The notes under the pieces: model-generated | What the model saw: the letters and a program-made list of their open reading frames with translations, nothing else | Database searches by the model: none | Told to the model about the DNA's origin: nothing | Shown: piece after piece, positions 1 to 39,900 of the stretch | Layout of the letters: every line of letters starts with the position of its first letter | Position numbering within the stretch: position 1 is the first letter of the stretch | Source: Terebella lapidaria | Taxonomy: Eukaryota; Annelida; Polychaeta; Terebellida; Terebellidae | Reading direction: 5' to 3' | Length of the DNA: 64,000 nucleotides | Assembly (NCBI GenBank): GCA_949152475.1 | Contig: OX424568.1 | Coordinates: 24,899,667 to 24,963,666, forward strand | Position numbers and translations under genes: made by a program

Positions 1-49
1 CCAGGATCCCCGAGGGTCTACTGCCAGGGAACGAACCTCAGCATCACTC

Positions 50-2608
50 ATGTCCGGCGAAAACGACGAAACTGCCCCAGGGAAGACAGGAGGTGAAGAG
101 GAAGACTCTTCGCGGACGGCCTCACTTGCGGACGAGGAAGACAGCGGTTCGCGGAAGCCGACCTTTGCGGAAGAGGGAGACGACCGTTCGCGGAAGACGT
201 TCGCGGAAGACGACCGTTCGCGGAAGACGTTCGCGGACGACAACCGTTCGCGGAAGACGACCTTGGCGGAAGAGGCCGACGACCGTTCGCGGAAGACAAC
301 GTTCGCGGAAGACGACCGTTCGCGGAAGAGCAGCTTCACAGCCAGGGGTAGACGGGACGTTTCGACGAGTGAGGAGCAACCAGGGAGGTCGAGACCTTCC
401 ATGGGCCAGTCGACTAGTCAACAGAGACCCCGGAGCCAGACACCCGACAACCGTTTTCTTTTCAGACACGACTCTGGGTGGCAGCACGATCGAGACAGGG
501 AGAGGTCAACCTACCTTGAGAGCGTTAGGAGGGGCCCCGAGTTCCGACGAGTGCTGGGACCGGAGTACGTCAATCTGGACGGGGAGGACGGCGAAATCTG
601 GGCGAGGAGGGATCGGCTACAGCTACCGGAGCAGAGTCCAAGTGTGGCACCTCCAGAGAATGCAGCATTGAGACGGCTTTGGGACCAGTCCCAGCAGCAG
701 TCTGGTGCAACAGAGCAGCAGTCTGGTGCAACAGGGCAGCGGTCGGGTGTGACGAGTCGACAAACGGGAGTGACTGGAGGACGGGTTACTTGGGCTCCGA
801 CCCAAGAGAGCAGCTCGAGAGGGAGAGGACTTTTCGCGGAAGAGAACATTCGCGGACGAGAGGCATTCTTCGGCGACAGGGACGCTTGCAGCCGGGGATC
901 CTTCGTGGATGAACGGGCTCGTGGGCGAGGGGGAGTCTTTGGTGACGAGGACGCTTGTGACCGGGGAGGGCCCTTCGCGGACGACCACGTTCGCGGACGA
1001 GGACGACTCGCGGAAGAGAGTGTTCGCGGAAGAGAGGAGTCTTCACCCAGACGGCGGCTCGACGAAAGGAGTGATCCAGGCGACCAATCTTCCTTTCCAG
1101 TTTTTCAGAATAGACGGGGAAGACCATTCGCGGATGAGCCGGTTCGCGGAAGACTCGCGGAAGATGGCGTTCGCGGACGTGCATCTTTTGTGGAGGGACG
1201 TCTCCGAGACATCTTGGCGGACGAGCCCGTTCGCGGAAGACTCGCGGAAGACGGCGTTCGCGGAAGAGGCCTGTTCGCGGAAGAACTTCTTCGGGAGCTG
1301 TTGGCGGAAGAGTCCGTTCGCGGAAGGTTCGCGGAAGACAGTGTTCGCGGAGGGTTCGCGGAAGACAGCGTTCGCGGAAGAGGGAGGTCTTCACCCAGTC
1401 GACAACCGAGACAGCCAGCCTCCTGGAGAAATCCAGCTTCTATTTCAGTCACCCAGGGAGGCCGGAGACAGCACCCTTTCTCATCATCGGGCGATGAGGG
1501 GCCTTCATCTGATGGAGGGACCGACAGCAGCCATGGTTACCCAGGACGGGGGAGGAGACCACCGAGGCGGGGACCGCCGCTGCACCGACGAAGCCCTAGG
1601 CCGAGACGGAGGCAGGAGGACTCGTCGTCCGAGGACAGCACAGCCTGGAATCAGAACGGCAGAAGGAACCGGAAGATGCTGACCCCTGACAAGTTCGATG
1701 GGACTTCCATAGAGTGGCCGGTGTACCGGGCCCACTTTGACGTCATCGCAGAGGTCAACGGATGGAGCAAGCGGGAACAGGGCGTCTACTTAGCCGGGAG
1801 CTTGACAGGAGAGGCGCGACGAATGCTGACCAGCCTGAGTCCTGCAGACCGGAGGGACATCGACGTTCTGACCGACAAGCTGACCCTACGATTCGACCCT
1901 GACTGTCAGGAGGAGTCCTACAAGGCGACCTTGGGACAGAGAACCCGCAGGAAGGCAGAGACACCCCAGCAGTACGGCTATGAGTTGCAGCGACTGGCCG
2001 GCCGTGGTTATCCGGATCTGAACTCCGCAGCTCAGGAGGCTATCGCCTTAGACCACTTCTGGAAGGGCCATCCAGATGGGGACATGAAGGTGATGGCGCT
2101 CATGAGGAAGATGAAGACCATGGAGGAGGCCATAGCGTTCGTGACCCAGTACGAATGTGTCAAACCCAAGCCTGGGAAGCCGGTGATGTCCATAGAGTCG
2201 GAGGACTCCGAGCCAGCTCTAGGACGGGTCCTACAGCTGTTGAAGAACCAGCAGGGAGGCGAGATTACCACCAGTGGGCAGCAGAGCAACCAGCCGAACG
2301 TAGCGGGTCTACCCAGACTTCCCTACTTCAAGGGGCTCTTTGAGAGCCAAGACAGGAAGCTGGATCGACTAATCGAGCTGTGTGAGCAGGTGCTATCCAT
2401 CAAGCCGAGGGCCGCCACTGCTGAGAACAAGGGACCAAGCGCTAGGCCGGGACCAGATGACTGTTGGTACTGTGGGAAGCCGGGTCATCGGAAGTACCAG
2501 TGTCCAGATCGGCCGCCACCTCGGACCAAGGAGGAGCGCTTGAGTCGACTAATCGAGGAGATTGGTGAGCGGAACAGTTTGACAGACGAGGTGTCGGAAA
2601 ACCAGTAG
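50..2608 (+). CDS. gag: Gag polyprotein with repetitive N terminus and CCHC knuckle
   Basis: The product has 852 residues. Residues 1 to about 460 are low complexity and built from repeats such as FAEDDRSRK and LAEDGVRGR, encoded by the decamer TTCGCGGAAG and its variants. Residues about 545-720 (from KFDGTSIEWPVYRAHFD) look like a retrotransposon gag capsid domain. A zinc knuckle CWYCGKPGHRKYQC lies near residues 805-818 and should bind the RNA genome. The start ATG at 50 is the first in the frame within the window; an upstream start cannot be excluded because the window begins here. Gag ends with TAG at 2606-2608, and pol continues in the -1 frame. Gag proteins of this class are usually 300-500 residues, so the extra length is the repeat region. 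Confidence 0.88.
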   Translation: MSGENDETAPGKTGGEEEDSSRTASLADEEDSGSRKPTFAEEGDDRSRKTFAEDDRSRKTFADDNRSRKTTLAEEADDRSRKTTFAEDDRSRKSSFTARGRRDVSTSEEQPGRSRPSMGQSTSQQRPRSQTPDNRFLFRHDSGWQHDRDRERSTYLESVRRGPEFRRVLGPEYVNLDGEDGEIWARRDRLQLPEQSPSVAPPENAALRRLWDQSQQQSGATEQQSGATGQRSGVTSRQTGVTGGRVTWAPTQESSSRGRGLFAEENIRGREAFFGDRDACSRGSFVDERARGRGGVFGDEDACDRGGPFADDHVRGRGRLAEESVRGREESSPRRRLDERSDPGDQSSFPVFQNRRGRPFADEPVRGRLAEDGVRGRASFVEGRLRDILADEPVRGRLAEDGVRGRGLFAEELLRELLAEESVRGRFAEDSVRGGFAEDSVRGRGRSSPSRQPRQPASWRNPASISVTQGGRRQHPFSSSGDEGPSSDGGTDSSHGYPGRGRRPPRRGPPLHRRSPRPRRRQEDSSSEDSTAWNQNGRRNRKMLTPDKFDGTSIEWPVYRAHFDVIAEVNGWSKREQGVYLAGSLTGEARRMLTSLSPADRRDIDVLTDKLTLRFDPDCQEESYKATLGQRTRRKAETPQQYGYELQRLAGRGYPDLNSAAQEAIALDHFWKGHPDGDMKVMALMRKMKTMEEAIAFVTQYECVKPKPGKPVMSIESEDSEPALGRVLQLLKNQQGGEITTSGQQSNQPNVAGLPRLPYFKGLFESQDRKLDRLIELCEQVLSIKPRAATAENKGPSARPGPDDCWYCGKPGHRKYQCPDRPPPRTKEERLSRLIEEIGERNSLTDEVSENQ
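109..1395 (+). repeat. Dispersed TTCGCGGAAG/TTCGCGGACG decamer repeats inside gag
   Basis: By eye there are more than 20 near-perfect copies, in two clusters (109-330 and 833-1385). Starts include 148, 187, 200, 217, 247, 286, 302 and 319 in the first cluster, and 1023, 1143, 1230, 1256, 1273, 1317, 1328, 1354 and 1371 in the second. Spacing is irregular, often 13-17 or about 26-30 bases, and copies fall in different reading frames, giving FAE-, SRK- and VRG-type peptides. The unit has no stop codon in any frame, which explains the many long overlapping open frames here. The same decamer forms regular arrays before both TATA boxes of the element. Confidence 0.9.
2596..2602 (+). promoter_or_regulatory. 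Candidate -1 ribosomal frameshift site between gag and pol
   Basis: The heptamer GGAAAAC reads G GAA AAC in the gag frame and ends three bases before the gag stop at 2606. The pol frame is open from 2569 across the gag stop and on into the protease region, and it is -1 relative to gag. An A-site AAC-to-AAA slip is classic. The P-site GAA-to-GGA slip is less perfect but resembles G GAU UUA type sites. I did not find an obvious downstream pseudoknot by eye. Alternatively, pol could start at the ATG at 2632. Confidence 0.45.
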
Positions 2609-2631
2609 GGCTCATACCAGCCCCCAACCGT

Positions 2632-4767
2632 ATGGGCCATTGGCAGGTGTGTGCACGGCTTCACAGGCGAGAAGCTCGACGAAGACGTGAAGAACACATT
2701 GCCAGGGGGGAATTTTTAGTTTCACAGATTTTTAATAGGTTTTTCCGGTGTGCATCCGAAGTAACTGGATGGGCGCAGGAGGAGCTCGAGGATCGAATTC
2801 TCGACTATATGGAGGGCAAGCCTGTCAACACAGACGGGAGTGCCAATGTACAGCAAACTGATGGAGCCGTGGAGCGTCTAATGACCCGCGGAGACGTCGA
2901 CGAAATGCAGACCGATGGAGCCGTGGAGCGTCTGGGGACCCACGGAGACATCAACGAGGTTTCTGCTAGCAGCAAGGAGAACCAACAGGTTACAACCTTG
3001 AGGCTGGAGGCTGCGAAACAGCAGGGACCCCCCTATGCAACTGAACCACAAGCGGCCGTGAAAGAGGAGACGGAGGGCCGGTGGAGCGGAATGACCAAGG
3101 GGCCAGCACAGCAGCTATTGCTGGTGGACGACTCATTACTTATCCGGAGCGGCGGTTCCGAGGGGAGTGATTCCCTTAAGACTGACAGAGAGGACCAGGG
3201 TGGTGCATCACTGTGGGTGGACGACTCAGTACTTATCCAGGGCGGCGTCCCTGAGGAGAGTGGCAGCTCTCTTAAGATTGACAGAAATGGCCAGGTGGTG
3301 TCGCTGTCAGCCGGTGCCCGAGGCACATTGGCGTGGTATGCGGCGTGCCACGTTATGGGGAAGGCGACTCGTATGTTGGTGGACACGGGTGCCTCTTCCA
3401 CCGTTCTGGACGAGTGTCTCTTCGACCAAATGGATGACGAACATAAAGCAATGATAAGGCAGACGAGAATAAGGTTACGGGCAGCAACCGGAGACTACTT
3501 ACAGGTTCAAGGAGAGATGACAGTTCAACTTCTACTGGGCACACGACTCGTGTCGGCAGATGTACTGGTAGCCAAACTAGGGATCCCGGGAGTGTTGGGG
3601 CTTGATGTACTTCAACAGATTGGGGGACAGCTGGATCTGCGTAAGGGCGAGTGGCAGGTGGGCGACACTACCGTAGTGATGAGCTCGGGCCACGAGGGCG
3701 CCGTCTACACACTGGTGACGGAGGAGACGGTCGTCTTGCCACCCTTTTCAGAGATGATGGTGGACCTCAAGCTGACAGGAAGTGAGGGAGGAGTTCCGAA
3801 GGCCGGCCTCGTGCAGTCCGCAAGAGAGCCGTTGGAGGACGACCCCCTCGTAGTGGGACGAGCCCTGGTACGACCCCGAGGACGCCTGGTACCGGTGGTA
3901 CTTCTGAACGCCGGCGCTGGAGCTTGCACTGTGCTGATGGGGACCATCCTAGCCGAGCTTCACGGAATAGAGGCCGTGATCGACCTGGGATTTCGTCCCG
4001 ATGGAGGGAAAACAACCCAGAATGAACCTAAAAGGGAACAGTGGTACCGGGAGGAGAGCGGGAGGGAGCATGAGCCCCTTACACCAAACTCCACCAAGTG
4101 GCGGAACCGGACGCCTGAGCAGCCCGAAACCAGAGTGCACGCCATGCACGCAGAATCGTCGACGAAGACACCAGAGTGCCCGGAGCATTTAGAACCGCTC
4201 CTGGAGGGAATGCATCCGAACTTGACGGAAAAGGAGGTGGAGGTCGTCAGCGATCTCCTTCGACGCCACCAGCAGGTCTTTATGGGACCAGATGGGAGGT
4301 TGGGCCGGACGTCCCTGGCGAAACACGTCATCGACACGGGAGATCACCCCCCGATCAAGCAGCCTCTGAGGAGAGCCCCGTACTACCAACAAGAGCTGAT
4401 CGAGGACGAGGTCGACAAGATGTTGAAAGCTGACGTTGTGGAGCCAAGTGACAGTCCATGGTCGTCTCCCATCGTGCTAGTGAAAAAGAAGGATGGTGCA
4501 CTGAGATTTTGCGTCGACTACCGCCGTCTAAATGATGTCACCCGGAAGGATGCGTACCCCCTGCCTCGAGTCGACGAGAGTTTTGATACCTTGTCAGGAG
4601 GACGATATTTTTCGACGCTAGACTTGGCTAGTGGTTACTGGCAGGTCGAGATGGACGACAGGGACAAGGAGAAGACGGCGTTCACTACCCGTAGTGGACT
4701 CTATCAATTTAAAGTGATGCCGTTTGGATTGGCGACGGCCCCGGCTACTTTTGAACGTCTAATGTAG
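2632..4767 (+). CDS. pol: Pol, first part: aspartic protease and N-terminal half of RT, ends at in-frame TAG
   Basis: The frame is open from 2569; the first ATG is at 2632. A retropepsin-like active site MLVDTGASSTVLD is near residue 248, with a second hydrophobic strand VLGLDVLQQIGG near residue 325. RT begins near residue 575 (KQPLRRAPYYQQELIEDEVD), followed by the fingers motif VLVKKKDGALRFCVDYRRLN, the first catalytic Asp in FSTLDLASGYWQVEM, and the FGLATAPATFERLM stretch. TAG at 4765-4767 then stops the frame 39 bases before the YLDD codons. The same frame continues open to 7650, so this is one interrupted pol gene, not two. It makes the particle protease and part of the polymerase. Confidence 0.85.
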   Translation: MGHWQVCARLHRREARRRREEHIARGEFLVSQIFNRFFRCASEVTGWAQEELEDRILDYMEGKPVNTDGSANVQQTDGAVERLMTRGDVDEMQTDGAVERLGTHGDINEVSASSKENQQVTTLRLEAAKQQGPPYATEPQAAVKEETEGRWSGMTKGPAQQLLLVDDSLLIRSGGSEGSDSLKTDREDQGGASLWVDDSVLIQGGVPEESGSSLKIDRNGQVVSLSAGARGTLAWYAACHVMGKATRMLVDTGASSTVLDECLFDQMDDEHKAMIRQTRIRLRAATGDYLQVQGEMTVQLLLGTRLVSADVLVAKLGIPGVLGLDVLQQIGGQLDLRKGEWQVGDTTVVMSSGHEGAVYTLVTEETVVLPPFSEMMVDLKLTGSEGGVPKAGLVQSAREPLEDDPLVVGRALVRPRGRLVPVVLLNAGAGACTVLMGTILAELHGIEAVIDLGFRPDGGKTTQNEPKREQWYREESGREHEPLTPNSTKWRNRTPEQPETRVHAMHAESSTKTPECPEHLEPLLEGMHPNLTEKEVEVVSDLLRRHQQVFMGPDGRLGRTSLAKHVIDTGDHPPIKQPLRRAPYYQQELIEDEVDKMLKADVVEPSDSPWSSPIVLVKKKDGALRFCVDYRRLNDVTRKDAYPLPRVDESFDTLSGGRYFSTLDLASGYWQVEMDDRDKEKTAFTTRSGLYQFKVMPFGLATAPATFERLM
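4765..4767 (+). other. In-frame TAG inside the reverse transcriptase palm
   Basis: This stop separates the two open pol segments, which are otherwise in the same frame with no insertion or deletion. It falls between the template-grip region and the YLDD catalytic motif (4807-4818). Stop-codon recoding in retroelements normally lies between gag and pol, not inside RT, so a disabling nonsense mutation is the simplest reading. Confidence 0.85.
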
Positions 4768-7650
4768 CTGGCACTGAGGGGACTCCAATGGAAGCGTTGT
4801 CTAATTTATTTGGACGATGTCGTCTGTCTTGGAAAGACTTTCCAAGAAGCCGTGGACAACCTCGAGGACGTGTTCCGGAGACTGCAGGCTGCCGGGCTGA
4901 AGCTGAAACCCGCCAAGTGTGAGCTGTTTCGACAACAGGTCAACTTCCTGGGCCATGTCGTGTCCGACCGAGGCATCCAGTGCGACCCTGCCAAGGTCGA
5001 AGCTGTAACAAAAATGGTTCCTCCGACCACCTTGACAGAACTAAGGAGCTTCCTTGGGTTCGTGGGGTACTACCGCAGATTCATCCCTGACTTTGCCACC
5101 CGAGCGGGACCCCTCAACCACCTGTTAAAGAAGGAAGTCAACTACCATTGGAGCGAGGCTCATCAGCAGGCGTTCGAGGCGCTGCGTCAACCCCTGACCG
5201 AGCACCCCCTGCTGGTGTACCCTGACATGGACCAAGAATTTATTTTAGATACTGATGCTAGCGGCTACGGAGTGGGAGGCGTCTTATCCCAAGTGCAGGA
5301 CGGACGAGAGCGGGTGATCGCCTATGCTTCCAGAACCCTGAGGGACACCCAGCGGAATTACTGCACCACCAAGCGGGAGCTCCTGGCCGTCGTCAGTATG
5401 ATACACCATTTCAGACATTTCTTGTGGGGGAGAGCGTTCTTACTACGAACCGACCACGCCTCTCTCAAGTGGCTACTGAACTTTCGGGATGCGGAAGGAA
5501 TGATCGCTAGATGGGCAGCTCGCATCGCCAGCTACGCCTTCAGGTGTGAGGTCCGACCGGGAGTACAACACGGGAATGCAGACGGGATGTCCAGATGCCG
5601 ACAGTGCCGGAGACCGGATTGTCCCGCCCCTCGCCACACCACAAGACCCGAAGGAGAAGAGGAGGCCTGTCCGACTCAGGAGGAGTGTCCCCTACCCCTG
5701 GAGGACCTCTCTGACGAGGATCTGCTTCCACCGATCAGCGGAGAAGGATGGAGCCCCGGAGGACCTCAAGTTAACATCTTGCGGGAGGTCCCTGTGGAGC
5801 CCTGGACGGAGGACTACTATTGCGGAGATGGAGTCGGGATATTCCAGATCTGGGAGGTGCGCTGCCAGGAGGACCCGAGGACGACTACCCAGCCGACCGA
5901 GGAATGCCTGCCTGACCGGAGCCCCCCACAGACGGAGGAAGGAGCCAGGAGCGTCTGCAGAACCCTGCATCAGCTCCGCCCCTCTGCCTGGGTTTGGTTT
6001 CTCCTGATGATGCTCCTCGCACTGCATGGTTTGGGACCGGAGGTTGTGGCCGGAGCAGCGATCGGCGCGACGGCCGACGTGTGGATGCGCTGCCGAGAGG
6101 AGCCCTTCCTGGACCCATGCCCCAACCCTGTGCTCCGAGATCCAGACAAACAAATGCTAGCTGTCACGCGGGCTATGGCTACGGGAGGACGCCGGAATCC
6201 GATGGAGGGAGCCCCGGAGGCCCAGGTCCTGAATGGTTATTCCCAGGAGGACCTAGTGACCCTTCAACGAGCCGACCCTGAAGTTGGAGGCATCCTCGGG
6301 TGGAAGAATATTTTCACTGAGAGACCTGCATGGCCCGAAGTCAGAACAAAAAGTCAGCAAATGAAGACTCTGTGGCAACAGTGGGACCAGCTGGAGCTAC
6401 GTGATGGGCTTCTGTACCGGCGGTACCAAGCGGCTTGCCAGAACGCACCAATCCATCAACTGGTCGTTCCACAGGTCCTGAGACGCGCCGTCATGAAGGA
6501 GGTCCACACCGGCAAGCTGATGAGCCACCAGGGAATCACCAAAACAGTCCACCGACTAAAAGCGAGAATGTACTGGCCGGGTATGACGAAGGACGTGGAG
6601 CGTTGGTGCCGGGAGTGCCTGAAGTGTAGTGGGAGAAAGCCGCGACCGGGGCCCAAGTACCACCCCATGGGAAATCTACCGGTAGGCGATCGGCTAGAAA
6701 GGGTGGCCATGGACATTTTGGAGCCTGGAACGATCACCAATTCTGGGAACCGGTATATACTGGTCGTGGGTGATTATTTCACCAAGTGGACTGAGGCCTA
6801 CGCTCTACCCAACCATGAGGCTCAGACGGTGGCGGACGTCTTTGTGACTGAGTTCGTGTGCCGCCTGGGAATGCCAGCCAAGATACACACCGACCAGGGA
6901 CGAGAGTTCGAGAGTAAGCTTTTCCTTGAGATGATCAAGATCCTAGGAGGGGAGAAGACTCGGACGACCCCTTATCACGCCAAATCAGACGGGATGGTCG
7001 AGCGATTCAACCGGACCCTGCTGAACCTTCTGGCCGTGGTCGTGGACGAGAACCATGACGACTGGGACGACCATCTGCCCTACGTGATGGCGACTTATAG
7101 AACATCAGTACACGAAAGCACCGGGTGTACACCATTTCGAATGATGATGGGACGGGAGGCAACCACCCCATTGGACCTGAGGTACCGGACGAAACCGGAC
7201 GATTTGGGAGGACCAGTCCCCGAGTGTGCGTCCGAATACGTCGAATGGGTGAAGGAAGCCACCATACAAGCTCACGAGACTGCCCGAGAGTGCCTGAAGA
7301 CGGCTACGGTGCGACAAAAGCGCCATCATGACATAAAATCAGCCGCTCGACATTTTCCGGTGGGCACCTGGGTGATGTATTGGTACCCTCCAAAGGCTAG
7401 ACCAAAACTAGGACTAGGGTGGACGGGACCTTATCTCGTTGTGAAGTCTCATCTCGGATGGATGGTGTCCATACAAGATCGACCCGGTGGCAAGATTAAA
7501 GATGTCCACATTGACAATATAAAAAGGTGCTGGTTCACCCCTGAAACCGACGCCTGGATACCCAATCCGGACGATGTGACCCCAGTCCGGACCCCCAGTG
7601 ATGACGAGGGACGAGTGGAAAACAGCGGGAATGCAGTCCAAACGATGTAA
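4768..7650 (+). CDS. pol: Pol, second part: RT palm, RNase H, integrase
   Basis: This continues the pol frame after the TAG. YLDD, the RT catalytic pair, is at 4807-4818. The RT connection LRSFLGFVGYYRRFIPDFA leads to RNase H with LDTDASGYGVGG (about 5246) and later acidic residues. A linker of about 300 residues follows, containing a strongly hydrophobic run (WVWFLLMMLLALHGLG, about 5990-6035). Integrase has an HHCC zinc-binding domain (from VHTGKLMSHQG to CRECLKC, about 6499-6636) and a DDE triad: Asp in VAMDIL (6709), Asp in HTDQGREF (about 6890) and Glu in MVERFNR (about 6999). A GPYLVV motif near 7429 marks a GPY/F-type C-terminal domain. I see no chromodomain. The protein ends at TAA 7648-7650. 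Confidence 0.87.
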   Translation: MALRGLQWKRCLIYLDDVVCLGKTFQEAVDNLEDVFRRLQAAGLKLKPAKCELFRQQVNFLGHVVSDRGIQCDPAKVEAVTKMVPPTTLTELRSFLGFVGYYRRFIPDFATRAGPLNHLLKKEVNYHWSEAHQQAFEALRQPLTEHPLLVYPDMDQEFILDTDASGYGVGGVLSQVQDGRERVIAYASRTLRDTQRNYCTTKRELLAVVSMIHHFRHFLWGRAFLLRTDHASLKWLLNFRDAEGMIARWAARIASYAFRCEVRPGVQHGNADGMSRCRQCRRPDCPAPRHTTRPEGEEEACPTQEECPLPLEDLSDEDLLPPISGEGWSPGGPQVNILREVPVEPWTEDYYCGDGVGIFQIWEVRCQEDPRTTTQPTEECLPDRSPPQTEEGARSVCRTLHQLRPSAWVWFLLMMLLALHGLGPEVVAGAAIGATADVWMRCREEPFLDPCPNPVLRDPDKQMLAVTRAMATGGRRNPMEGAPEAQVLNGYSQEDLVTLQRADPEVGGILGWKNIFTERPAWPEVRTKSQQMKTLWQQWDQLELRDGLLYRRYQAACQNAPIHQLVVPQVLRRAVMKEVHTGKLMSHQGITKTVHRLKARMYWPGMTKDVERWCRECLKCSGRKPRPGPKYHPMGNLPVGDRLERVAMDILEPGTITNSGNRYILVVGDYFTKWTEAYALPNHEAQTVADVFVTEFVCRLGMPAKIHTDQGREFESKLFLEMIKILGGEKTRTTPYHAKSDGMVERFNRTLLNLLAVVVDENHDDWDDHLPYVMATYRTSVHESTGCTPFRMMMGREATTPLDLRYRTKPDDLGGPVPECASEYVEWVKEATIQAHETARECLKTATVRQKRHHDIKSAARHFPVGTWVMYWYPPKARPKLGLGWTGPYLVVKSHLGWMVSIQDRPGGKIKDVHIDNIKRCWFTPETDAWIPNPDDVTPVRTPSDDEGRVENSGNAVQTM

Positions 7651-7665
7651 ACGATGACGGGAGCG

Positions 7666-7779
7666 TTCGCGGAAGAACCGTTCGCGGAAGCAGCGTTCGC
7701 GGAAGCAGCGTTCGCGGAAGTACCGTTCGCGGAAGCACGTTCGCGGAAGCAGCGTTCGCGGAAGAACCGTTCGCGGAAG
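7666..7779 (+). repeat. Regular array of eight TTCGCGGAAG decamers
   Basis: Eight perfect copies start at 7666, 7681, 7696, 7711, 7726, 7740, 7755 and 7770, a period of 15 bp with one 14. The array lies between the end of integrase and a TATA box. The core TTCGCGGAA is a TTC-N3-GAA partial palindrome. Position and spacing suggest a multi-site binding platform for a transcription factor; this is inference. Confidence 0.92.
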
Positions 7780-7847
7780 CAAGCGAAAAACGTTATTTCG
7801 TTCCACGACAATGCTTTTTCCCCCAGATCCCTGGTCCGCGCCTTTTC

Positions 7848-7854
7848 TATATAA
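7848..7854 (+). promoter_or_regulatory. Internal TATA box ahead of the third ORF
   Basis: CTATATAAG at 7847-7855 lies 36 bp before the ATG of the third ORF and about 70 bp after the decamer array. A start site 25-30 bp downstream would give a very short 5' leader. The LTR promoter has the same arrangement and the same CTATATAAG core. Confidence 0.7.
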
Positions 7855-7889
7855 GCAGGCCGGCCTACGATTCCGTCATCACTTCAACC

Positions 7890-8987
7890 ATGAACACACC
7901 AACTCTGCAGATCATTGAGATACCCGCATTTGCAGACGAAGATTTCGGGGACGTTCCAGATTTCGACTTGGCTGACTTTCTGCCCCTTGAAGTCGACAAG
8001 ATGAGCGACCCACCTACCAAGATAGACAAGCCTGACCGAAAGCGGGAGCGCTCGAGGAGCCGGGAGCGTCGTGAGGAGCCCCGAGGAGGTCGACGGTCCC
8101 CTGCCCGGAAGTTGTCCACCGAGAGAGGGCGACGCTGGTGCAGCCCCTGCCGGATCCACGTGACGGCATCCAACTTTAGCCGACACGTGGCGACCAAACA
8201 CACGCAGAAGGAGGGGCGGCACCTCTGCAAGATGTGCAGCCAGCGATTCGCCCGCCGAGCTGACAGAGACCGGCATGAGACGTCGCATGCCAGCGGCAAC
8301 ACCCTCAAGCCAGGACGGAGGAGGACGACGACCGACACGCCCGTGTCCGACCCCCGAGATGGTCCGACTACTGTGTCTGCCCCTGAGCTGAAGACTGTCA
8401 GCTTTGCGGCCAGCGGGACGACCAGCTCCACGCCGTCAAGCCCCCGGGAGGACGCCCCCAGGTCAGAGGACGCCCCAGACCCCGAGGACGACCCCCCGAA
8501 TAGCGAAGAGGAACCGGAGTCTCAGCAGGAGCGGAGAGAGGCGGAATCCCCGGAGGCCCCCACCCCCGAGGACGACGGACCCCCCGTTCCCAGAGACTCG
8601 GCCCCTACCTACAAGCCCCTAGACCTGAGTTGGTACCTCAAGCCCGTTCCGGAGGAGGAGGACCAACTGCGACCGTATGTGGAGGGCCTGGGCAGAGCGG
8701 TCACTGCCGGAGAGAAGGCCCTGGAGGACCTGGCGTCCACGATAGCCATGGGACGACGCCACCTCACCCAAGCGGAGGCTCGGCTCCAAGCCAAGGAGGA
8801 GCAGAGACAGCTCGAGGCCGAGGTGCTGCAGCTGCGAGGGGAGGCCTCTCAACGAGAGAAGAGCCACCGGAAGGAGCTGCGAGCCCACGTCCGAGAGACC
8901 AAGCTGCTCCGGGAACAGCTCCGAGCATATACAGACACTCGAGACAGGCTGGCGGAGACGTCCGAAAGCGAGGTGGATCGCCAGTGA
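7890..8987 (+). CDS. Third ORF: acidic, two-C2H2-finger, coiled-coil protein (candidate transactivator)
   Basis: The product has 365 residues and occupies the place of env, but has no signal peptide or membrane segment. Residues about 8-33 are acidic and hydrophobic (ADEDFGDVPDFDLADFLPLE), like an acidic activation domain. Residues about 45-80 are Arg-rich, a plausible nuclear signal. Finger 1 is C-x2-C-x12-H-x4-H (CSPCRIH to HVATKH) and finger 2 is C-x2-C-x12-H-x3-H (CKMCSQRF to HETSH). A Pro/Glu-rich stretch follows (about 155-245). The last 90 residues are heptad-like and charged, probably a dimerising coiled coil. The start at 7890 is the first ATG after the internal TATA box. Family homologs are unknown to me; the transcription-factor role is inferred from domain order and from the repeated sites upstream. 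Confidence 0.75.
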   Translation: MNTPTLQIIEIPAFADEDFGDVPDFDLADFLPLEVDKMSDPPTKIDKPDRKRERSRSRERREEPRGGRRSPARKLSTERGRRWCSPCRIHVTASNFSRHVATKHTQKEGRHLCKMCSQRFARRADRDRHETSHASGNTLKPGRRRTTTDTPVSDPRDGPTTVSAPELKTVSFAASGTTSSTPSSPREDAPRSEDAPDPEDDPPNSEEEPESQQERREAESPEAPTPEDDGPPVPRDSAPTYKPLDLSWYLKPVPEEEDQLRPYVEGLGRAVTAGEKALEDLASTIAMGRRHLTQAEARLQAKEEQRQLEAEVLQLRGEASQREKSHRKELRAHVRETKLLREQLRAYTDTRDRLAETSESEVDRQ

Positions 8988-9093
8988 AGTGGAGGGAGAG
9001 AGCCCTGTAAACAACAGACAGGCAGGAAAAGACGAAGAAGGAGGAAGAAGAGAAAAGAAGAGAGAGAAAGGATCAACGGGGACGTTGATCTCC

Positions 9094-9107
9094 AGAAAGG
9101 GTGGAGT
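9094..9107 (+). other. Polypurine tract before the 3' LTR
   Basis: A purine-rich stretch (agaaagggtggagt) directly abuts the LTR start TGTAAC at 9108, the expected place for plus-strand priming. A longer purine-rich region (9027-9070) lies further upstream. Confidence 0.65.
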
Positions 9108-9191
9108 TGTAACAAAACCATGCAACTGCCGCGCTGAAACGTTCGTTAGGAACGGTCACGTGATCTACAAAGTCCACTTGCGAAGACACCG

Positions 9192-9413
9192 TTCGCGGAA
9201 GAACCGTTCGCGGAAGCACGATTGCGGAAGCATCATCAGCGGAAGCATCGTTCGCGGAAGAACCGTTCGCGGAAGCACGATTGCGGAAGCATCATCAGCG
9301 GAAGCATCAGTCGCGGAAGCACCGTTCGCGGAAGAGGAGCCTTCGCGGAAGAACCGTTCGCGGACGCAGTCTTCACCACGTGGAGAAGAGTGCGGAAGAT
9401 ACGTTCGCGGACG
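9192..9413 (+). repeat. LTR decamer array, 15-bp period
   Basis: Perfect or one- to three-base variants of TTCGCGGAAG start at about 9192, 9207, 9221, 9236, 9251, 9266, 9280, 9295, 9310, 9325, 9342 and 9357, with a last copy at 9404. The 15-bp step matches the internal array at 7666-7779. It lies immediately upstream of the LTR TATA box, in the U3-like part of the LTR. Confidence 0.9.
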
Positions 9414-9438
9414 AAGATGCGCGCGCAGCCACCCTGGC

Positions 9439-9445
9439 TATATAA
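9439..9445 (+). promoter_or_regulatory. LTR TATA box
   Basis: CTATATAAGGG lies 25 bp after the last decamer. Genomic RNA would start about 30 bp downstream (near 9470). Confidence 0.7.
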
Positions 9446-9932
9446 GGGAGAGCGGACGGCCGCTCTGAGAGCACTGCAACAGCGACATCGACCGTGGGGA
9501 GATCGTCACCGCCACAGCCAAGGGACTCGACGAACTCCGTGCGGACGACTCCTTCTTCAGGGCCTTAGAGTCAACCGGGATTTAGACCGACTACCTGGAG
9601 AAACCATTCGACTAAGCGGGACGGGAAACTTCAACGGGAAGGGACAGAGAGACGCCGCCGGCTAAGAACTCTTTTTAGTTGTGCCCTCGTGCACTATTTA
9701 TTTTTGAAATGTGATCATACAGTGCTCCATGTCTGAACTTCATATTTGTACGTCACGTGGGTGACCAGCCATACAATTGTAAGTTGATTTGATGTATATA
9801 AATCTTCAATTTATTTACATCTGAGTTGCTTCTTGCCTAAGTGAAGCCGGTGAGCTACGGAGTGATGATACACCAGCGTTGGGGGACACCAATTTAGTGA
9901 CGGCTCTCGAATCACAACGAGCGGGAGTTACA

Positions 9933-10754
9933 TAAAGTCTATACGATCAGAGAAACCAGGTTTTTTGGGCCACACCGAAAACAAGTCATTACCAAACGTC
10001 ACATATACAATCACAAATCATCTGAAGCCATGTGGCATCCAGCTGCCATACATGTGTGGCTGGTAAAGGCGAGACGTAGACCCATGTGGCAGCTATGTTG
10101 TTTGGAATGGAGAACTTCATTGGTCTAGGGTAGGCCTACCACACGCTTCCTTGTGTTTGTTACTCCTATCAAGGTTCCTTTATAATAGTGATTTGAGCGT
10201 GTTGAAACACTGCCGGACGCCAATAATCAGAATGTAATCGTCAAGTTGTAATAACCATGAGCATATACGTGTATCCACGAATTGAAATAAATGGTAGATG
10301 ATTGCATGGGGGTGGGGGGGGGTGTGAATTTTATCAACAATATTCAGCATCCACTCTGGCCATGATGTCATATTAGGGTCGGGATTTGTGTGTGTCTGTT
10401 CATTAGGCCTATGTGTGTGAATAGGAACGTGTAACTCGGAACAAAAATTGTACAATCGTCTTGAAATTTGAGCGATTAGGCCGAATTAGACGATGAGATC
10501 TGTCTTATAAAAGTTGTCTTATGAGACGGATCTTAAGGTGTGAACCAGCGAAAATGTATCTCATGAGTCATATAAAAAAACGTCATGAGATATCTTATAG
10601 ATTTAGAACATGTTGTATTTCGATGAGACACAAATCTCGTGAGATTATGACAACGTTTTTGTTTCCATGGTTATCAATCCCTAGTGGTCATACATTGGGC
10701 TGGGTAATTAGCGAGAAATTCCAAACTGTCGTCAATCGAGTTTGTTTCTTCAAC
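9933..10754 (+). other. Repeat-like flank without a gene
   Basis: AT-rich sequence after the LTR. A poly-G run lies at about 10312-10322. Short self-complementary words such as gtcttatgagac and atctcatgag recur around 10480-10640, suggesting a decayed small DNA transposon. No coding feature is supported. Confidence 0.4.
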
Positions 10755-22700: not shown

Positions 22701-25700
22701 TCAGTCTGGACCAGATAGTGAAGTGTGCAGGAGGTGTCCTGGTGCAAAATACCTTCTTTACAGGGACCCAGCTTTCATTGATGGAGAGGGCCGCATGACC
22801 GACAGCATCGCTACAGAAGGGAACACGTTCACTGACACGTCCGTACAGAGTTCAGTATATTTGAGAAGTGGACAATAAAATTCACATATGACGCACACAT
22901 ATTGGATAAATTGTTCCATTCTTACACAGTGTCGACAAGAATTCGACCTATGAGTACAGAGTTTCTGTCATCCGCGGATTAATGCGAAGTCGCCAGTCGC
23001 CTTCTTTGTTTTATATCAGTGGCGACCCTTTCTGTGGAAACGGGATAACTGACAGGTGATTAGATGGCTTCCAATACGACTTTCTATATGAAAAATAACA
23101 TACCATCAAAGTCCGTAGGATTAGATAGGATGAGTATCGTTCGTATTCACGTTCGTGTTCATGTGTGTCCTTGAACCAACAATGCATCTCCCATGTTATC
23201 GTCAGTGATACGGGCGAAGAATGTGATGACGCTAACTTTCGGGACGATGACGGCTGTAGCTCCGCCTGTAGACTGCAAGAAAGCTGCACTTGCCAGGGTA
23301 ATCGACCTCTTCTGAGAGTTTCTTCTCGGTCAGATGATAAATTAGTATTGGCTATGTATTCTGGATAAATCTTCTTGTTCAATATATTGGTGGTACTGCT
23401 CACAGGTTCTCCAAGTACCTGTACATGCTCTGTCGGGGGAAAGAGTCTCTGCAATGATTCCCGGGATGACAGTACTCCAGCCTGTCTGGACCGACCTAAG
23501 TCCGGATTCTCCACCACTTGGGGGGTTTCAGCCAGTGCAGGGCCCGGACGAGTCCATTACTTGTCTGCTGGAGGGTGCACGCCTGATGTCGTCGCTGGAC
23601 CACCAACCATCGGTGATGATGTAAGTATTAACGAGAATGATCGACAAAACACGAACAAATGTACCATAATATACAACAGTTGCAAATTTCATGATGTTTA
23701 TGGTTTACAGTTTTGCAATGCCGTGTATGATCCTACGTTGGCATGGCGGCCACAGTGTCTTGACAGTTACTATGGGGCCACAAGTCATACGAGGTACTGG
23801 CTCCGGGTAAGTTCCGCGAATGCAAAAAGATTCGGATGCATGTTCTCCTGGGTGGGCATGCAAGGTATGTCAGCGTATTAAATGCAAACGAAGTAAATGT
23901 TGTCTATAGTATATATTGTGGAAAAGTATGGGGGTTGCAATGTTGCAGTGTCAGAAATAGTTTTGCCTGTGAAAAGTCCCAAACAACAAATGAGCAAAAT
24001 TATAAGATTTTTAGAAATATTTTGAATAACATTTGTCAGCAGTTCAGGATTTTCAGGATTCTCTTGTGCAATATAGAGAAAATTCATTTTCTGAAGCCAA
24101 CAAAGACATGTACGCATGAAGTCACATATATTTTGTATATAGATTATGAAATCAACATTGGAGGCACATTGCCAAGTGTGAGGCTACAACAGGCCTTGTG
24201 ATCGATTCAAGAGCTGCGCGCCTCGCTTATGAGTTATCAATTCATCAATTACATTATTTTCTTTTGTTTCCTGTCATTACCAGCGTGTTCAACGAACGTA
24301 TGATTATTTCCTGCAGATTTGCATAGATACCCCAAATATCTCCAACCTTTTCCTATAGCTTGCACTGGTAGAATATTCTCTCCAGCATTAATCATGCTAT
24401 ACAAAGTCTCCTGATCTGTCGTCATAATGATTTCATCATAAGCCAATTGATGCACATACTTCATGTAGTGCTCTGTCCATGTATTCATAAGCGTGACATT
24501 GGCAAGGAAGGCACCTCCAGCCAACCAGCAGCCTCCTCTAATCAACACCTCCCAGGGAGTCCGCTCTATATCCCTGGGCCTAGCTTCAGAATAGGCCACT
24601 TCACTTATATTATACCTCCTAGGAACTGCTAGCCAGAAATTTGAACAGTTCCCTTCAGCCATTTCACCAATCATGCCTACATAATAACCAATATCAAGCC
24701 ATATTATGTAGCGTGTACAAAACCAGTTTTCCACTGTTACACTATGAACTACTTCATACTTAGCATGCTGTACAGCACTATACTCCAGAACATCCAAGTC
24801 TCTATGGCGACCAATCAAGGGTGATCGATCAATTCTTGTCCGGATCGTATCTATTAAGCTGAATGCCCACATGTCGGTATAGTTCAGGACTAGTACTCTG
24901 GTCTTGGACCATCCTAAGTGACGTCGGAGACTTCTGAAGTACTTGGCGTCTTCTGCTCTGTTGAAGTATGCTACGACAGGGTTGAGAATCAGCTTGTAAG
25001 GAGTCATCCATTTGAAGTAAATGTCAGTGTTGCGATAGGATTTGGCCTTGGGAATTTTTTCTCGCAGACGAAAAAACGCTGTGACGATGGTGATGTCATC
25101 AGAGAGATGTTCACATTCTCGTGCAGTAGCAAGACGTCCATAGCCCCTTATGTGAGCCTGTCAATTAAAACCCATTGCCAAGCATCATAACAACGACCTT
25201 CCTGACATGTGTAACATATTGTACGGAAAGACTCTGAACAATGACTAATATCTTACTTATTATCAACTTTACGGCTTAGGAATCAATTGTGCACATATGG
25301 AAATAAACATGGAAACAATACGCAAGTATATAGAATCCGAGCAAACAAAACCAAATCCATTATCCAATCTCAAAGTCCGGTGTCAGGCAAACTCGAGAAA
25401 ATTTTAAGGAACTTCATGCACCCCCATATATGGCCATAAAGGGGTGAAATCAGGTGTTCCGGAAAGAGTGAGCATTTCCTGCCCCACATGTGGCACCCGT
25501 CATGAAATCCAATACATTAACATGCAAACAGGTCTTGTTGCATATTTGTGACAGATTTTGTGTACTTATCAACCAGATCGTGATGACGTCCATAGAATTT
25601 CTTGAAAGCAGCTATTAGTCTTGGTAAAATATACCCTTATCGCAGCAGTTTAGAGGCTAGCTGGGAGCTTCGGTGAAGTTTTCCACAGTGGCGTCTTCTG

Positions 25701-32437: not shown

Positions 32438-33590
32438 TTAGCATTGTGTTGTATTGATGGCATTGGAGTGTCTGGCGCCCGTGTGAAATTGTCCTGCAGT
32501 TTTACAAAGGTACCCCAAATATCTCCAACCTCGTCCTATAGCTTGCACTGGCAAAATGTTATCTCCAGCATTCATCACGCTATACAAAGTTTCCTGATCT
32601 GTGGTCATAATGATTTCACCATACACCAAGTGCTCCACATACTTCATGTAGTGCTCTGTCCATGTCTTCATGAGCGTGACATTGGCCAGGAAGGCACCTC
32701 CAGCCAACCAGCAGCCTCCTCTAATCAACACTTCCCAGGGAGTCCGCATCATGTCCCTGGTTCTAGCCGCAGAGTACGCCACTTCACTTCTGTTATACTT
32801 TGCAGGGACTGATAGCCAGAACTCTGAACAGTTCCTAGCAGCCATTTTATCAATCATGCCTACATAATAACCAATATCAAGCCATATTATGTAGCGTGTA
32901 CGAAACCAGTTTTCCACTGTTGCATTATGAACTACTTCATACTTAGCATGCTGTACAACACTATACTCCAGAACATCCAAGTCTCTATGGCGACCAATCA
33001 AGGGTGATTTATCAATTCTTGTCACAATCGGTTGTATCAAGCTAAATGCCCACATCTCGGTTTGGTTCATGACTAGAACCATCGTTTTAGATTGTCCTAA
33101 ATGACGTCGGAGTCTACTAAAGTAACGAGCGTCTTCTGCTTTGTTGAAGTACGCTACGACAGGGTTGAGGATCAGCTTGTAAGGAGTCATCCATTTGAAG
33201 TAAATGTCAGTGTTGCGATAGGATTTAGCCTTGGGAACTTTGTTACGGAGACGGAAAAATGCTGTGACGATGGTGATGTCATCAGAGAGATGTTCACAGT
33301 CTCGTGTAGTAGCAAAACGTCCATAACCTTTAAAGTGATCCTGTCGAAAAAAAACATCGTCAAGCATCATAGCACCGACTTTTTTTATACTAATATTAAC
33401 ATGGATATTGCAAATCAACAAACTACACTGTGATGTAATCTGGAAGACAGAAGTGCTCATTTGACTTTTGTGATACATTATATTCAAACCTACTTACCAA
33501 TGGTTGATATGGTGAATAGTAAACTGTGAGAAAAATCGACATTGCAAGCACTACAACAATCTGAAAGATCCATTTGATGCGGAACTCCAT
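32438..33590 (-). CDS. Second HtrL/YibB-like gene (paralog of the nested gene)
   Basis: Exon 1 33590-33498 (MEFRIKWIFQIVVVLAMSIF, signal anchor) joins exon 2 33340-32438 through donor CCATTG|GTAAGT and acceptor TTCGACAG|GATCAC, phase 0. The product is about 331 residues. It shares all motifs with the copy at 24249-26659: GYGRFATTRDCEHLSDDITI, NTDIYFKWMTPYKL, IIWLDIGYYVG and TTDQETLYSV. Identity by eye is high through exon 2; the last residues differ. Similarity extends into the upstream flank (33676-33880 against 26759-26900), so promoter and gene were duplicated together. In-frame ATGs upstream (to 33734) are less likely starts because they are not shared. Confidence 0.78.
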
Positions 33591-36956: not shown

Positions 36957-39900
36957 TTATTTTCTTCTGATTTTCCTGAGTGGCGTGTTGTCAATTATTA
37001 TCGGGTTGTCTGCCCTCTTGGAGCGAATGTTTCCTTTTGGCAACAGGGTCAATGCCAGACTTCTCTGGAGACGCAGCTTGTTCTCTTGATACCTGTAACA
37101 TTGTATGCAAACCTCTCAGTTTAATATACTTCCATGTGCATTCTTTGTCACTCTGTAAAACGTGGAAATCATTTGCGTGTGTGAATAAAACCTTAAAATA
37201 TACAGTTTTCTAGACTCTTACCCATATGTCCACAGCGAAGGGTTCTCGGCACGGATGCCAAGGCTCCTATGTCGCCCGAAATGTTGCTCCAGCGGATCCT
37301 GACAGTAGCGGTTTGTTAGCACCATCTTCACCCCACAGCCCAGGAGGTATTTTGTGGCTTCAATCATGGAGTGAACTGCAGAATAATTGATATCAAATAG
37401 TTGAGTTTGATCAGCAGCTTTAGATCCATGTGCAGAAAGTTTGGGGCAGGGGTTGGGGGGCTAAGGTGTACGCATGGGATGTGGAGTGAGCTGCATGACT
37501 TTATCGAAAAACAAACATAAAGTGACATTACATTGGGAGGGATACTGGTGAGTAAACCTGTTTTTCACCTGTTGTTTTGAGACCATCATAGGTCTGCTGA
37601 GACAGAAACATCTTCTGTTTTTCTGCCTTTGTGTAGCCTTCACGGGTTGCAACAGCCTCACGCCAGTTCTCAACATAGCCCCAAAACTCCTCACTCAGGA
37701 ACTGGTACAAGAAAATAATATCATTTCAATTCGGTATCATGCCCCTAAAGCAAGTTAAAAATGAAAGGAAGTAGTGTATGAGAAGGAAATTATCCCAGCC
37801 ACCCTCAGTTTTCTACATTGAATGCAATAAATTTGTAACATTTCACTGCCATTGTAGAAGCAAGTCTGAAAAATAACATACTGACCCGAAACCTCTCATC
37901 GTCAACACTTGTGAAAGGGGCCAGATACTTGTTGTTTTTCGTCAAACCCTCAGTTGGAGATCTGAAATAAAACAAGAAACACTCACCATTCCGAACAATA
38001 TCACACCTTCAATAGTGGAGGCTGAACAACTCATTAGGATTTTGTGTTGAAAAAATAACATTACACTTTGAAATGGCATTATTACAATATATCTCGGTGC
38101 CTACATCATATAAATGTACCTTGAATTCAGACAGTCGAAGAACTTATCCATCAACAGGATAAATTTGGCTGTTTCCTGACACCCCTCTCCACCAAACGTC
38201 TGCATCACAGAGCCTACAGTGTTGCTTAACACCTACAAAATAACGAAAGTCAATAAAACACAAAGTTATTCGACATGAGTTACACAACTCAATTGATAAT
38301 CATATATTTCCCTGAATACCTGAGCAGCAAGATACACTCGCATAGATGACTGGGGATTGAGGTAGATATGTTCTGCCGTCAGCTTGGTGCGTCTCAGTTG
38401 GCGCTCACTATCGTCCTTGTACAGTTGACAGACGTGAGCCCACAGGATGTCCTGGTCATTGTTCTATCAAAATTAAAGCAAAAAACCACATACAGGACTG
38501 TATATCACTACCAGATTTATCACTATAATGTATCAAACATGACAGAGTGTAATAAATTTTTGACTCATATGTGGTTGTAACAGTGCAAGCTGCGTATCAA
38601 TAGCTTTCAAAGTAGATAACATGTGTGACCGTTATGATTTGGAACATACTGGGGAATAATATATTTGCACATTATGATCTCGTCATAATACAAGACATTC
38701 ATTATTCAGGATTAAGTTAATACTTCCATTTGTGAGACCAGATAGTTTTCTAAATTGTCTTTATAATATTAGTGACTTATATATTGCATGGGAATATAAA
38801 AGAAACACTTAAATGCTTAGTTTGTAATCTATTCCAAATTCAAATAATATCCGTACATTCACTTCGTGGCACGTCACGTGATCAACTTTTGAGGGAGGTT
38901 TGTCAGCCATATTTGCTCACGGAGAGAACACGCCTGAATTTGTCTCCAAAGCTCTTTACGAGTATCCTCGAGTCAGTTGTCCGAACGTAAGAAATATATC
39001 CCAAATAGGGTAACGGTATCATGTTTTATTATATGTCGTGTAACCTAGTTCATGGTTTTATGAATTGCTCAAGCTACAATTAATTGAAATTACGTCTTCA
39101 CAATTAACACGTGGTCGAATCTGAAGTTGAGTGTGAACAGGCTTAAATGCCAATACAGAGTTATGTTACTGTTTGCCTAGCATATAGCAGCGATATATAA
39201 TGAGTTGTTGTTATTCCAGGTGTATTAGAGAACTTACGTAACCTGTAGGCCCGTCAGGACTTGGTCCGGGAAAAGGGTATGTTCACAATCTAATGGTGAC
39301 GTCAGTATTAGACTGATAGTGTCTATTGTGCTTGCATTCATTGCTCAGGGTAATCACCGATCAATGGTTCATACAATTACTAGGGAAGTTGACATATTAG
39401 TGTATCGAATGATAGTGTGTTCCGGGATGAATTATGGACCTTTGACAATACAGCTAGTAAATTGGTATTACCTTATTTTGAGACTAAGAATAGGAATTAT
39501 ATTGAGTGTTAATATGCTAGAGACCATGGGCAATGATCAGTATGTGTACATGTGCAAGATATGACTGTTGTTTTTTATTTGTGTCTGTAGGTCTGTGAGT
39601 GTGCATACAAGTGCAATGCAATAAATGAACAAGAGCACACTGTCTTCATTTTTCCCGAACCTCGGGTCACACATGGCGCTGCGAGCAGGGTTCGAACCTG
39701 CGCGGGAATATCCCATTGGATTTCGAATCCAAAGCCTTAACCACTCGGCCATCACAGGTTAAGGTTGATTTAGGGTCAGCATCTTTGACAGATCAAGAGA
39801 ATTTGATCATTTTGCAGCTGTTTCAGAAATTTTCACATGTATTCAGTCAAAATGAAACAGACTTAGGGTTCACTCAAACAGTGGAACATAGGATCAGGAC

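Follow-up and report, generated by a model that had tools for sequence, protein, structure and literature searches.

A young Ty3-type retrotransposon of the annelid Terebella lapidaria encodes a two-finger protein whose predicted target word is repeated in its own sequence

The stretch of DNA analysed here, which we call the window, comprises 64,000 nucleotides of the Terebella lapidaria genome (contig OX424568.1, positions 24,899,667 to 24,963,666, forward strand) and opens inside a long terminal repeat (LTR) retrotransposon that we name family A. Downstream of gag and pol this element carries a third open reading frame (ORF3) for a protein with two C2H2 zinc fingers, and the word that these fingers are predicted to read is repeated in arrays in the LTR, in gag and directly before ORF3. 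The element is laid out as follows, in window coordinates.

1..10003, plus strand: family A Ty3-type LTR retrotransposon; its 5’ LTR precedes the window, which starts 14 bp after that LTR
50..2608, plus strand: gag ORF, 852 amino acids; CCHC zinc-knuckle match weak, under the Pfam cut-off
109..328, plus strand: gag array 1, 12 sites of TTCGCGGAAG with at most one mismatch
833..1380, plus strand: gag array 2, 20 sites of TTCGCGGAAG with at most one mismatch
2608..7650, plus strand: pol, with protease, reverse transcriptase, RNase H and integrase; split in the window copy by an in-frame stop at 4765-4767
7666..7779, plus strand: internal array, 8 exact copies of TTCGCGGAAG starting at 7666, 7681, 7696, 7711, 7726, 7740, 7755 and 7770
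7847..7855, plus strand: internal TATA box CTATATAAG, 67 bp past the last internal-array site
7890..8987, plus strand: ORF3, 365 amino acids, intact; candidate self-targeting regulator
7890..8009, plus strand: acidic N terminus of ORF3, residues 1-40, candidate activation domain
8139..8201, plus strand: zinc finger 1, residues 84-104, recognition residues R/N/T, predicted to read G-A-n
8226..8288, plus strand: zinc finger 2, residues 113-133, recognition residues R/D/R, predicted to read G-C-G
8658..8981, plus strand: long helix in the AlphaFold2 model, residues 257-364, probable coiled coil
9108..10003, plus strand: 3’ LTR, 896 bp, identical to the 5’ LTR
9192..9413, plus strand: LTR array, 13-14 sites with the core GCGGA-n-G, mostly at 14-15-bp steps
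9438..9446, plus strand: LTR TATA box CTATATAAG

Family A is a young Ty3-type retrotransposon. Pfam matches across the ORFs at 2608-4767 and 4768-7650 follow the order protease, reverse transcriptase, RNase H, integrase that marks Ty3/gypsy elements (Metaviridae), and the identical LTRs of the window copy are flanked on both sides by the target duplication TATA. Of 19 other copies, 18 showed both flanks: 16 of them have an exact duplication of 4 bp, one has a match of 5 bp and one has none. The age follows from the near-identity of the LTR pairs, which could be read in 18 of the 19 copies and, taken over the first 827 bp of the LTR, differ by 0-4 substitutions among 751-885 aligned bases, the gap columns numbering 0-134.

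The repeated word is far too frequent to be a product of chance: the window holds 50 matches to TTCGCGGAAG with at most one mismatch against 2.1 expected (100 shuffles), and across the genome the exact decamer occurs 19,134 times, whereas its letters in backward order occur 1,184 times. The internal array and its TATA box lie within the 239 bp that separate the end of pol (7650) from ORF3 (7890). An earlier note, made from the letters of this stretch alone, had described eight sites, a TATA box and an ORF with an acidic start, a basic stretch, two C2H2 fingers and a coiled coil. The coordinates, charges and finger motifs bear this out, and the long helix of the AlphaFold2 model is a probable coiled coil. 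Its even 15-bp spacing holds for six steps, the remaining one being 14 bp. The dozen or so LTR sites that it placed before a second TATA box are indeed there, and number 13 with up to two mismatches or 14 with up to three (nine at one mismatch or fewer, six of them exact). It does not mention the 32 further sites in gag. These fall in the three reading frames as 15/10/7, and the 18 exact ones as 6/6/6; this even spread suggests that a DNA word rather than a peptide is being kept.

What is invariant is not the full decamer, as the earlier note had it, but the core GCGGA-n-G. A scan that allowed two mismatches anywhere recovered 55 sites in family A (34 in the N-terminal region of gag, 8 in the spacer between pol and ORF3, 13 in the LTR array), and 28 of their 29 mismatches lie in columns 1 (6), 2 (2), 3 (8) and 9 (12); the last is in column 5, and columns 4, 6, 7, 8 and 10 have none. 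In a contrast set of 25 chance sites (up to three mismatches) from the C-terminal stretch of gag and from pol, all columns vary. Sites of family A are almost uniformly oriented, with plus/minus counts of 16/0 in the LTR, 34/0 in gag and 8/1 in the spacer. The decamer loosely fits the words TTCN3GAA and GGAAG, which we take to be consensus sites of STAT and ETS factors, and a host factor of either kind might occupy the array while ORF3 serves some other role. However, the TTC half and A9 vary and GCGGA hardly does, and the word of a second family, described below, differs and fits the fingers of that family’s own ORF3. Since the TTC half tolerates change, we set the STAT/ETS reading aside, and consider a host factor very improbable.

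The layout is not peculiar to the window copy. All 112 ORF3 matches scored in the genome, out of 1711 first-look candidates, are full length and stop-free. We read the best 30 loci of these 112, window copy included, a selection by ORF3 from which the frequency of its loss cannot be estimated. Each of the 29 read from the exact ORF3 start has 6-9 exact decamers and CTATATAAG 5’ of ORF3 and the LTR TATA box 3’ of it, and the thirtieth, not read from that start, has 8 decamers and the TATA box too. The conservation of array, TATA box and third ORF among copies, which the earlier note had put forward for testing, therefore holds for loci chosen in this way. The stop that splits pol in the window copy recurs in none of the 11 of 20 other copies, likewise picked by their ORF3, in which that stretch is present. 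In the other nine, the sequence at that distance belongs to a part of the element that lies 1.5-2.7 kb nearer its 5’ end; these copies thus lack much of pol but retain ORF3. Across the 29 loci (window copy included) ORF3 shows 68 synonymous and no non-synonymous codon differences. We do not take these counts to prove selection, since the copies differ too little and the match to the protein was itself the basis for ranking the loci.

In the ORF3 protein, residues 1-40 carry a net charge of -10 with F, W, L, I, M or V at 15 of 40 positions, and residues 41-82 form a basic stretch of net charge +11. AlphaFold2, run on the single sequence, gives finger 1 two strands and a helix (block predicted local distance difference test score, pLDDT, 78-79) and extends one helix over residues 257-364 with block-mean pLDDT 83-97 over 261-360. 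The protein contains two C2H2 motifs, which Pfam finger models match only under their cut-offs, and sequence comparison to solved structures gave seven weak matches, the best to the Tramtrack finger pair (E 0.029). A search of 5.8 billion proteins for relatives of the family A protein, in which 7572 candidates were scored, gave no match at E 0.001 other than the protein itself, though a distant homologue could be missed in this way; none was found among the same 5.8 billion for the ORF3 protein of family C, introduced below. A pattern scan also gave decamer pairs in two stretches of viral contigs and 41 of prokaryote genomes, which were taken for chance and left unexamined, and a pol scan of the viral contigs did not find a relative.

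The fingers of family A can be read with the C2H2 recognition code. As given in the available text of PMC12264921, the residues at -1, -4 and -7 before the first zinc-binding histidine read the 5’, middle and 3’ base, with R, K or H specifying G, N or Q specifying A and D specifying unmodified C, and protein and DNA run antiparallel; the code is described there as incomplete and error-prone. For family A it predicts GCG from finger 2 (R, D, R) followed by GA-n from finger 1 (R, N, T), or GCGGA-n, and the sole base that it does not specify corresponds to the column of the decamer in which the sites vary most. Counts of each family’s own word were compared with 200 shuffles in families A, B and C. 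In family A, GCGGA was seen 16 times against 2.4 expected in the LTR, 9 against 1.4 in the spacer and 34 against 7.1 in gag, with 10 against 11.3 in pol and 4 against 3.7 in ORF3. None of families A, B, C and D shows enrichment of the word obtained by swapping the fingers.

Families B and C, which surfaced in a genome search with a pol relative (P0007), extend the comparison. The ORF3 proteins of A, B and C can barely be aligned, but all three share their plan and their place, and the order of array, TATA-like box and ORF3 recurs in each. In family B (C9, with a second ORF3, 99% identical, on C1), pol is followed by a repeat-bearing spacer and then by a 370-amino-acid ORF with an acidic start and two fingers. 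Finger 1 (R/G/K) and finger 2 (A/D/R) predict nCGGnG. The LTR contains 9 copies of ACGGTGC in 21-bp units and then TATTTAA; the spacer contains three TCGGTGCC words within a twofold 141-bp repeat and then CTCTATAAG. The repeated word, found in the LTR and 5’ of ORF3, is [A/T]CGGTGCC: CGGTGCC is common to LTR (9) and spacer (3), preceded by A in the former and T in the latter, in units that are otherwise different. Just two further 7-mers are shared to this extent: GGTGCCT, which overlaps CGGTGCC, and one AT-rich word. CGGnG was seen 16 times against 6.1 expected in the LTR and 8 against 2.4 in the spacer, with 26 against 21.4 in pol and 8 against 9.7 in ORF3. The family A word has no site in the family B spacer, and CGGnG is not enriched in the LTR, spacer, gag, pol or ORF3 of family A. 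For the spacer the prediction was not blind, the repeat consensus being visible alongside the fingers; the LTR was examined later.

Family C (C7 and others) has a 365-amino-acid ORF3 with fingers R/N/L and R/D/R, predicted to read GCGGA-n, and it shares both the base-specifying finger residues and the core with family A. Its GCGGA sites lie on both strands of LTR (18 plus, 18 minus), spacer and gag, with inverted pairs in the spacer, and number 36 against 3.2 expected in the LTR, 11 against 0.7 in the spacer and 16 against 4.0 in gag. CGGnG is raised as well, at least partly as GCGGAG contains CGGnG. Codon comparisons indicate that ORF3 of family C is under purifying selection, with a ratio of non-synonymous to synonymous rates (dN/dS) of about 0.1 in two of three comparisons: two copies set against the C7 copy, at a synonymous divergence (dS) of 0.29, give 0.097 and 0.098, and synonymous to non-synonymous changes in the 60-amino-acid finger region stand at 20:1 and 21:2.

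It might be argued that the arrays are nothing but neutral tandem duplications, generated by slippage and template switching. Repeat numbers do vary among copies, and the sites of family B sit in tandem units, as slippage predicts. Against this, the flanks in family A vary while the core stays, LTR and spacer of family B share little beyond the core, family C retains the core of family A although their ORF3 proteins are barely alignable, and the words fit the fingers in three families. We regard neutral duplication as scarcely credible.

Three loci were kept out of the motif counts: L143, a 378-amino-acid frame with many fingers, unlike the ORF3 of the elements, and probably a host gene; L145, a rearranged remnant of family C; and L148 (626-1720, reverse strand), a lone family B ORF3, 84% identical and with two stops, with no match to the family B LTR or spacer in the 3-kb stretch examined. 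TGACGT words, resembling cyclic AMP response elements, precede ORF3 in the spacers of families B, C and D (L127, L128, L142), and none was seen in the family A spacer. The family B copy lies in a satellite of 158-bp period (L137, L138), and the family D copy (L142) adjoins one of about 43 bp. P0007 itself has a C-terminal pentapeptide repeat (SDLRT/SALRP), with a 15-base period in the DNA, where family A has its internal array.

The word predicted from the fingers is the repeated word in families A, B and C, and the prediction fails in a fourth family. Family D, brought up by a search with the family B ORF3, also has a two-fingered ORF3, and its word, nCGGnA, was recorded from the fingers before its DNA was inspected. 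Its top LTR word, CCGGTT (6 seen, 0.44 expected), agrees with three of the four specified bases. When words are ranked by abundance on both strands, so that a 5-mer ties with its reverse complement, GCGGA stands first in the LTR and fifth in the spacer among 1024 5-mers in family A and first in both in family C. The predicted pattern ranks sixth and second of 256 in family B and 27th and 208th of 256 in family D. A rank alone is no probability, because neighbouring words of a repeat also rank high. Family D may be an older or a different system.

Several observations weigh against self-recognition or narrow it. The 135-bp spacer of family D has no internal array and no nCGGnA site, and in its LTR the word shows no significant enrichment (10 against 6.1 expected, reached by 21 of 300 shuffles). 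As families A and C share fingers and core, co-variation of fingers and word depends on the contrast with B alone, and the site copies of B are not independent, since they lie in a twofold 141-bp repeat in the spacer and a 21-bp tandem repeat in the LTR. The examined part of family B gag has no array (CGGnG 4 against 4.2 expected), and the B LTR has three GCGGA sites against 0.9 expected (11 of 200 shuffles). The code leaves G10 of the family A word unexplained, along with the T and the trailing CC of the family B word. In family A, finger 1 has 11 residues between Cys and His instead of 12, and AlphaFold2 models finger 2 poorly from the single sequence, merging its second Cys and helix into a helix over 114-133 with pLDDT falling from 77 to 59 and 45. 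Family C has a surplus of GCGGA in pol as well (36 against 12.3 expected). Its minus-strand sites in gag favour one reading frame (9/3/1), so that a peptide repeat is possible there, and its two close copies, set against each other, give a dN/dS of 0.65 on 18 changes.

We nevertheless consider the binding of the ORF3 protein to its own arrays, which the earlier note had proposed, to be well supported as a prediction, because the recognition code matches the word, the swapped-order control does not, and the different fingers of family B go with a different word. The two fingers would read GCG-GA-n within the core GCGGA-n-G, and the C-terminal helix may mediate dimerisation or oligomerisation on the closely spaced sites. 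The acidic N terminus would then recruit the transcription machinery. Bound to the LTR array, the protein would drive genomic RNA; bound to the array before its own gene, it would act at an internal promoter, giving an internal transcript and closing a positive loop. The gag arrays could serve as a downstream enhancer or as an anti-silencing array. That ORF3 is the element’s self-targeting transcription factor, acting in a positive loop over the LTR, gag and internal arrays, is in our judgement probable, and positive feedback is the likeliest role, with anti-silencing and negative feedback as alternatives.

The main rival, which shares the binding and is not exclusive of activation, is that ORF3 coats the arrays and removes or blocks repressive marks, as VANC proteins do. 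Dense arrays in one orientation in family A, some of them distant from promoters in gag, resemble the VANC21 targets described in the available part of PMC5735166, and the core of A, B and C contains a CpG whose unmodified C would be read by Asp, so that binding could sense methylation. The TATA boxes downstream of the arrays in A and B, the acidic and hydrophobic N terminus and the two orientations of the family C sites speak against it, and we think anti-silencing as the main role unlikely, if worth serious consideration. Alternatively, the bound protein might repress or insulate, as negative feedback on copy number or in the manner of Su(Hw). The same binding evidence would apply, a coiled coil on dense arrays could form a repressive or looping complex, and a young burst of copies might need control. 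The acidic N terminus argues against this, as do the intact ORF3 and arrays of the pol-deleted copies (nine of 20), though these copies were picked by their ORF3. Repression or insulation appears improbable to us.

It is tempting to see in these families an animal clade of Ty3-type elements with a private regulatory code, in which each family would pair a two-finger protein with a matching word in the LTR, in the internal promoter and sometimes in gag. Fingers and word would change together, so that each family would be controlled, in transcription or epigenetically, independently of the other families and of the host, and a copy that has lost pol could still be switched on as long as it retains the module. 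We hold this broader proposal tentatively, the case for and against it being finely balanced. Elements of this kind may have a control switch to themselves.

Other features of the window are noted in passing. A second Ty3-type element lies at about 38620-44365, with a pol ORF at 39716-43033 and LTR-like repeats, identified by eye, on both sides. The primer-binding position, directly after the first repeat, is taken by an entire tRNA-like sequence (minus strand, 39677-39758, Rfam 53.3 bits) rather than by the usual 18 or so bases. A 23-bp tandem repeat (43070-43173) directly follows the pol stop of this element, in a position that corresponds to that of the internal array in family A. Two minus-strand ORFs, 32438-33487 and 24249-25007, match HtrL_YibB (E 1e-05 and 0.003, the second under the Pfam cut-off), according to Pfam a bacterial protein of unknown function.

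In foamy viruses the internal promoter sits inside env, whereas the array and TATA box of family A lie in the gap between pol and ORF3. The logic is otherwise alike by analogy, as the earlier note had suggested, in that one element-encoded factor, Tas, is required by both the LTR and the internal promoter (PMC8670036, available part), an arrangement that is predicted for family A. The analogy does not extend to homology, the protein search described above having found no homologue of ORF3 besides itself; and family A differs further in its two-finger C2H2 protein, its Ty3-type context and its dense word arrays, which extend into gag. The claim of the earlier note that it knew of no described element with this layout has to be narrowed. 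The VANC proteins of Arabidopsis VANDAL transposons bind a short motif that is densely repeated in tandem in the element encoding them; protein and motif diverge jointly from family to family, and the proteins act in anti-silencing on mainly non-coding targets (PMC5735166, available part). Family A would share with them an element protein and tandem arrays of its motif, in one orientation; it differs in being an LTR element rather than of the VANDAL class, in an animal rather than a plant, with zinc fingers and with sites in coding DNA too. Grande, a maize Ty3/gypsy element, has in its 3’ internal region an accessory nuclear protein gene, gene23, with its own promoter, as ORF3 putatively has, but in antisense, and the accessible text of PMC7264820 does not mention a self-recognised array. 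Bdelloid rotifer LTR elements also carry a third ORF in an animal host; theirs are captured, of different types (env-like, esterase or exonuclease), and described as expressed from spliced messages, and the words zinc and promoter do not occur in the part of PMC5408684 available.

No LTR element that pairs a zinc-finger protein of its own with arrays to match was found in the literature searched, which consisted of titles and the openings of abstracts, with subscription journals sparsely represented. The gypsy element of Drosophila, also Ty3-type, has about a dozen sites for the zinc-finger protein Su(Hw), and these act as an insulator. Number of sites and type of element are alike, but there the binder is encoded by the host and here the candidate is encoded by the element. 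Binding and activation are open to direct test with small reagents, and the pairs of fingers and motifs within one genome offer test material for how the factor of a selfish element and its target change together. If our reading is correct, a sequence-specific regulator and its target have evolved within an LTR retrotransposon outside the retroviruses, as happened in foamy viruses and VANDAL transposons, but from a different protein fold.

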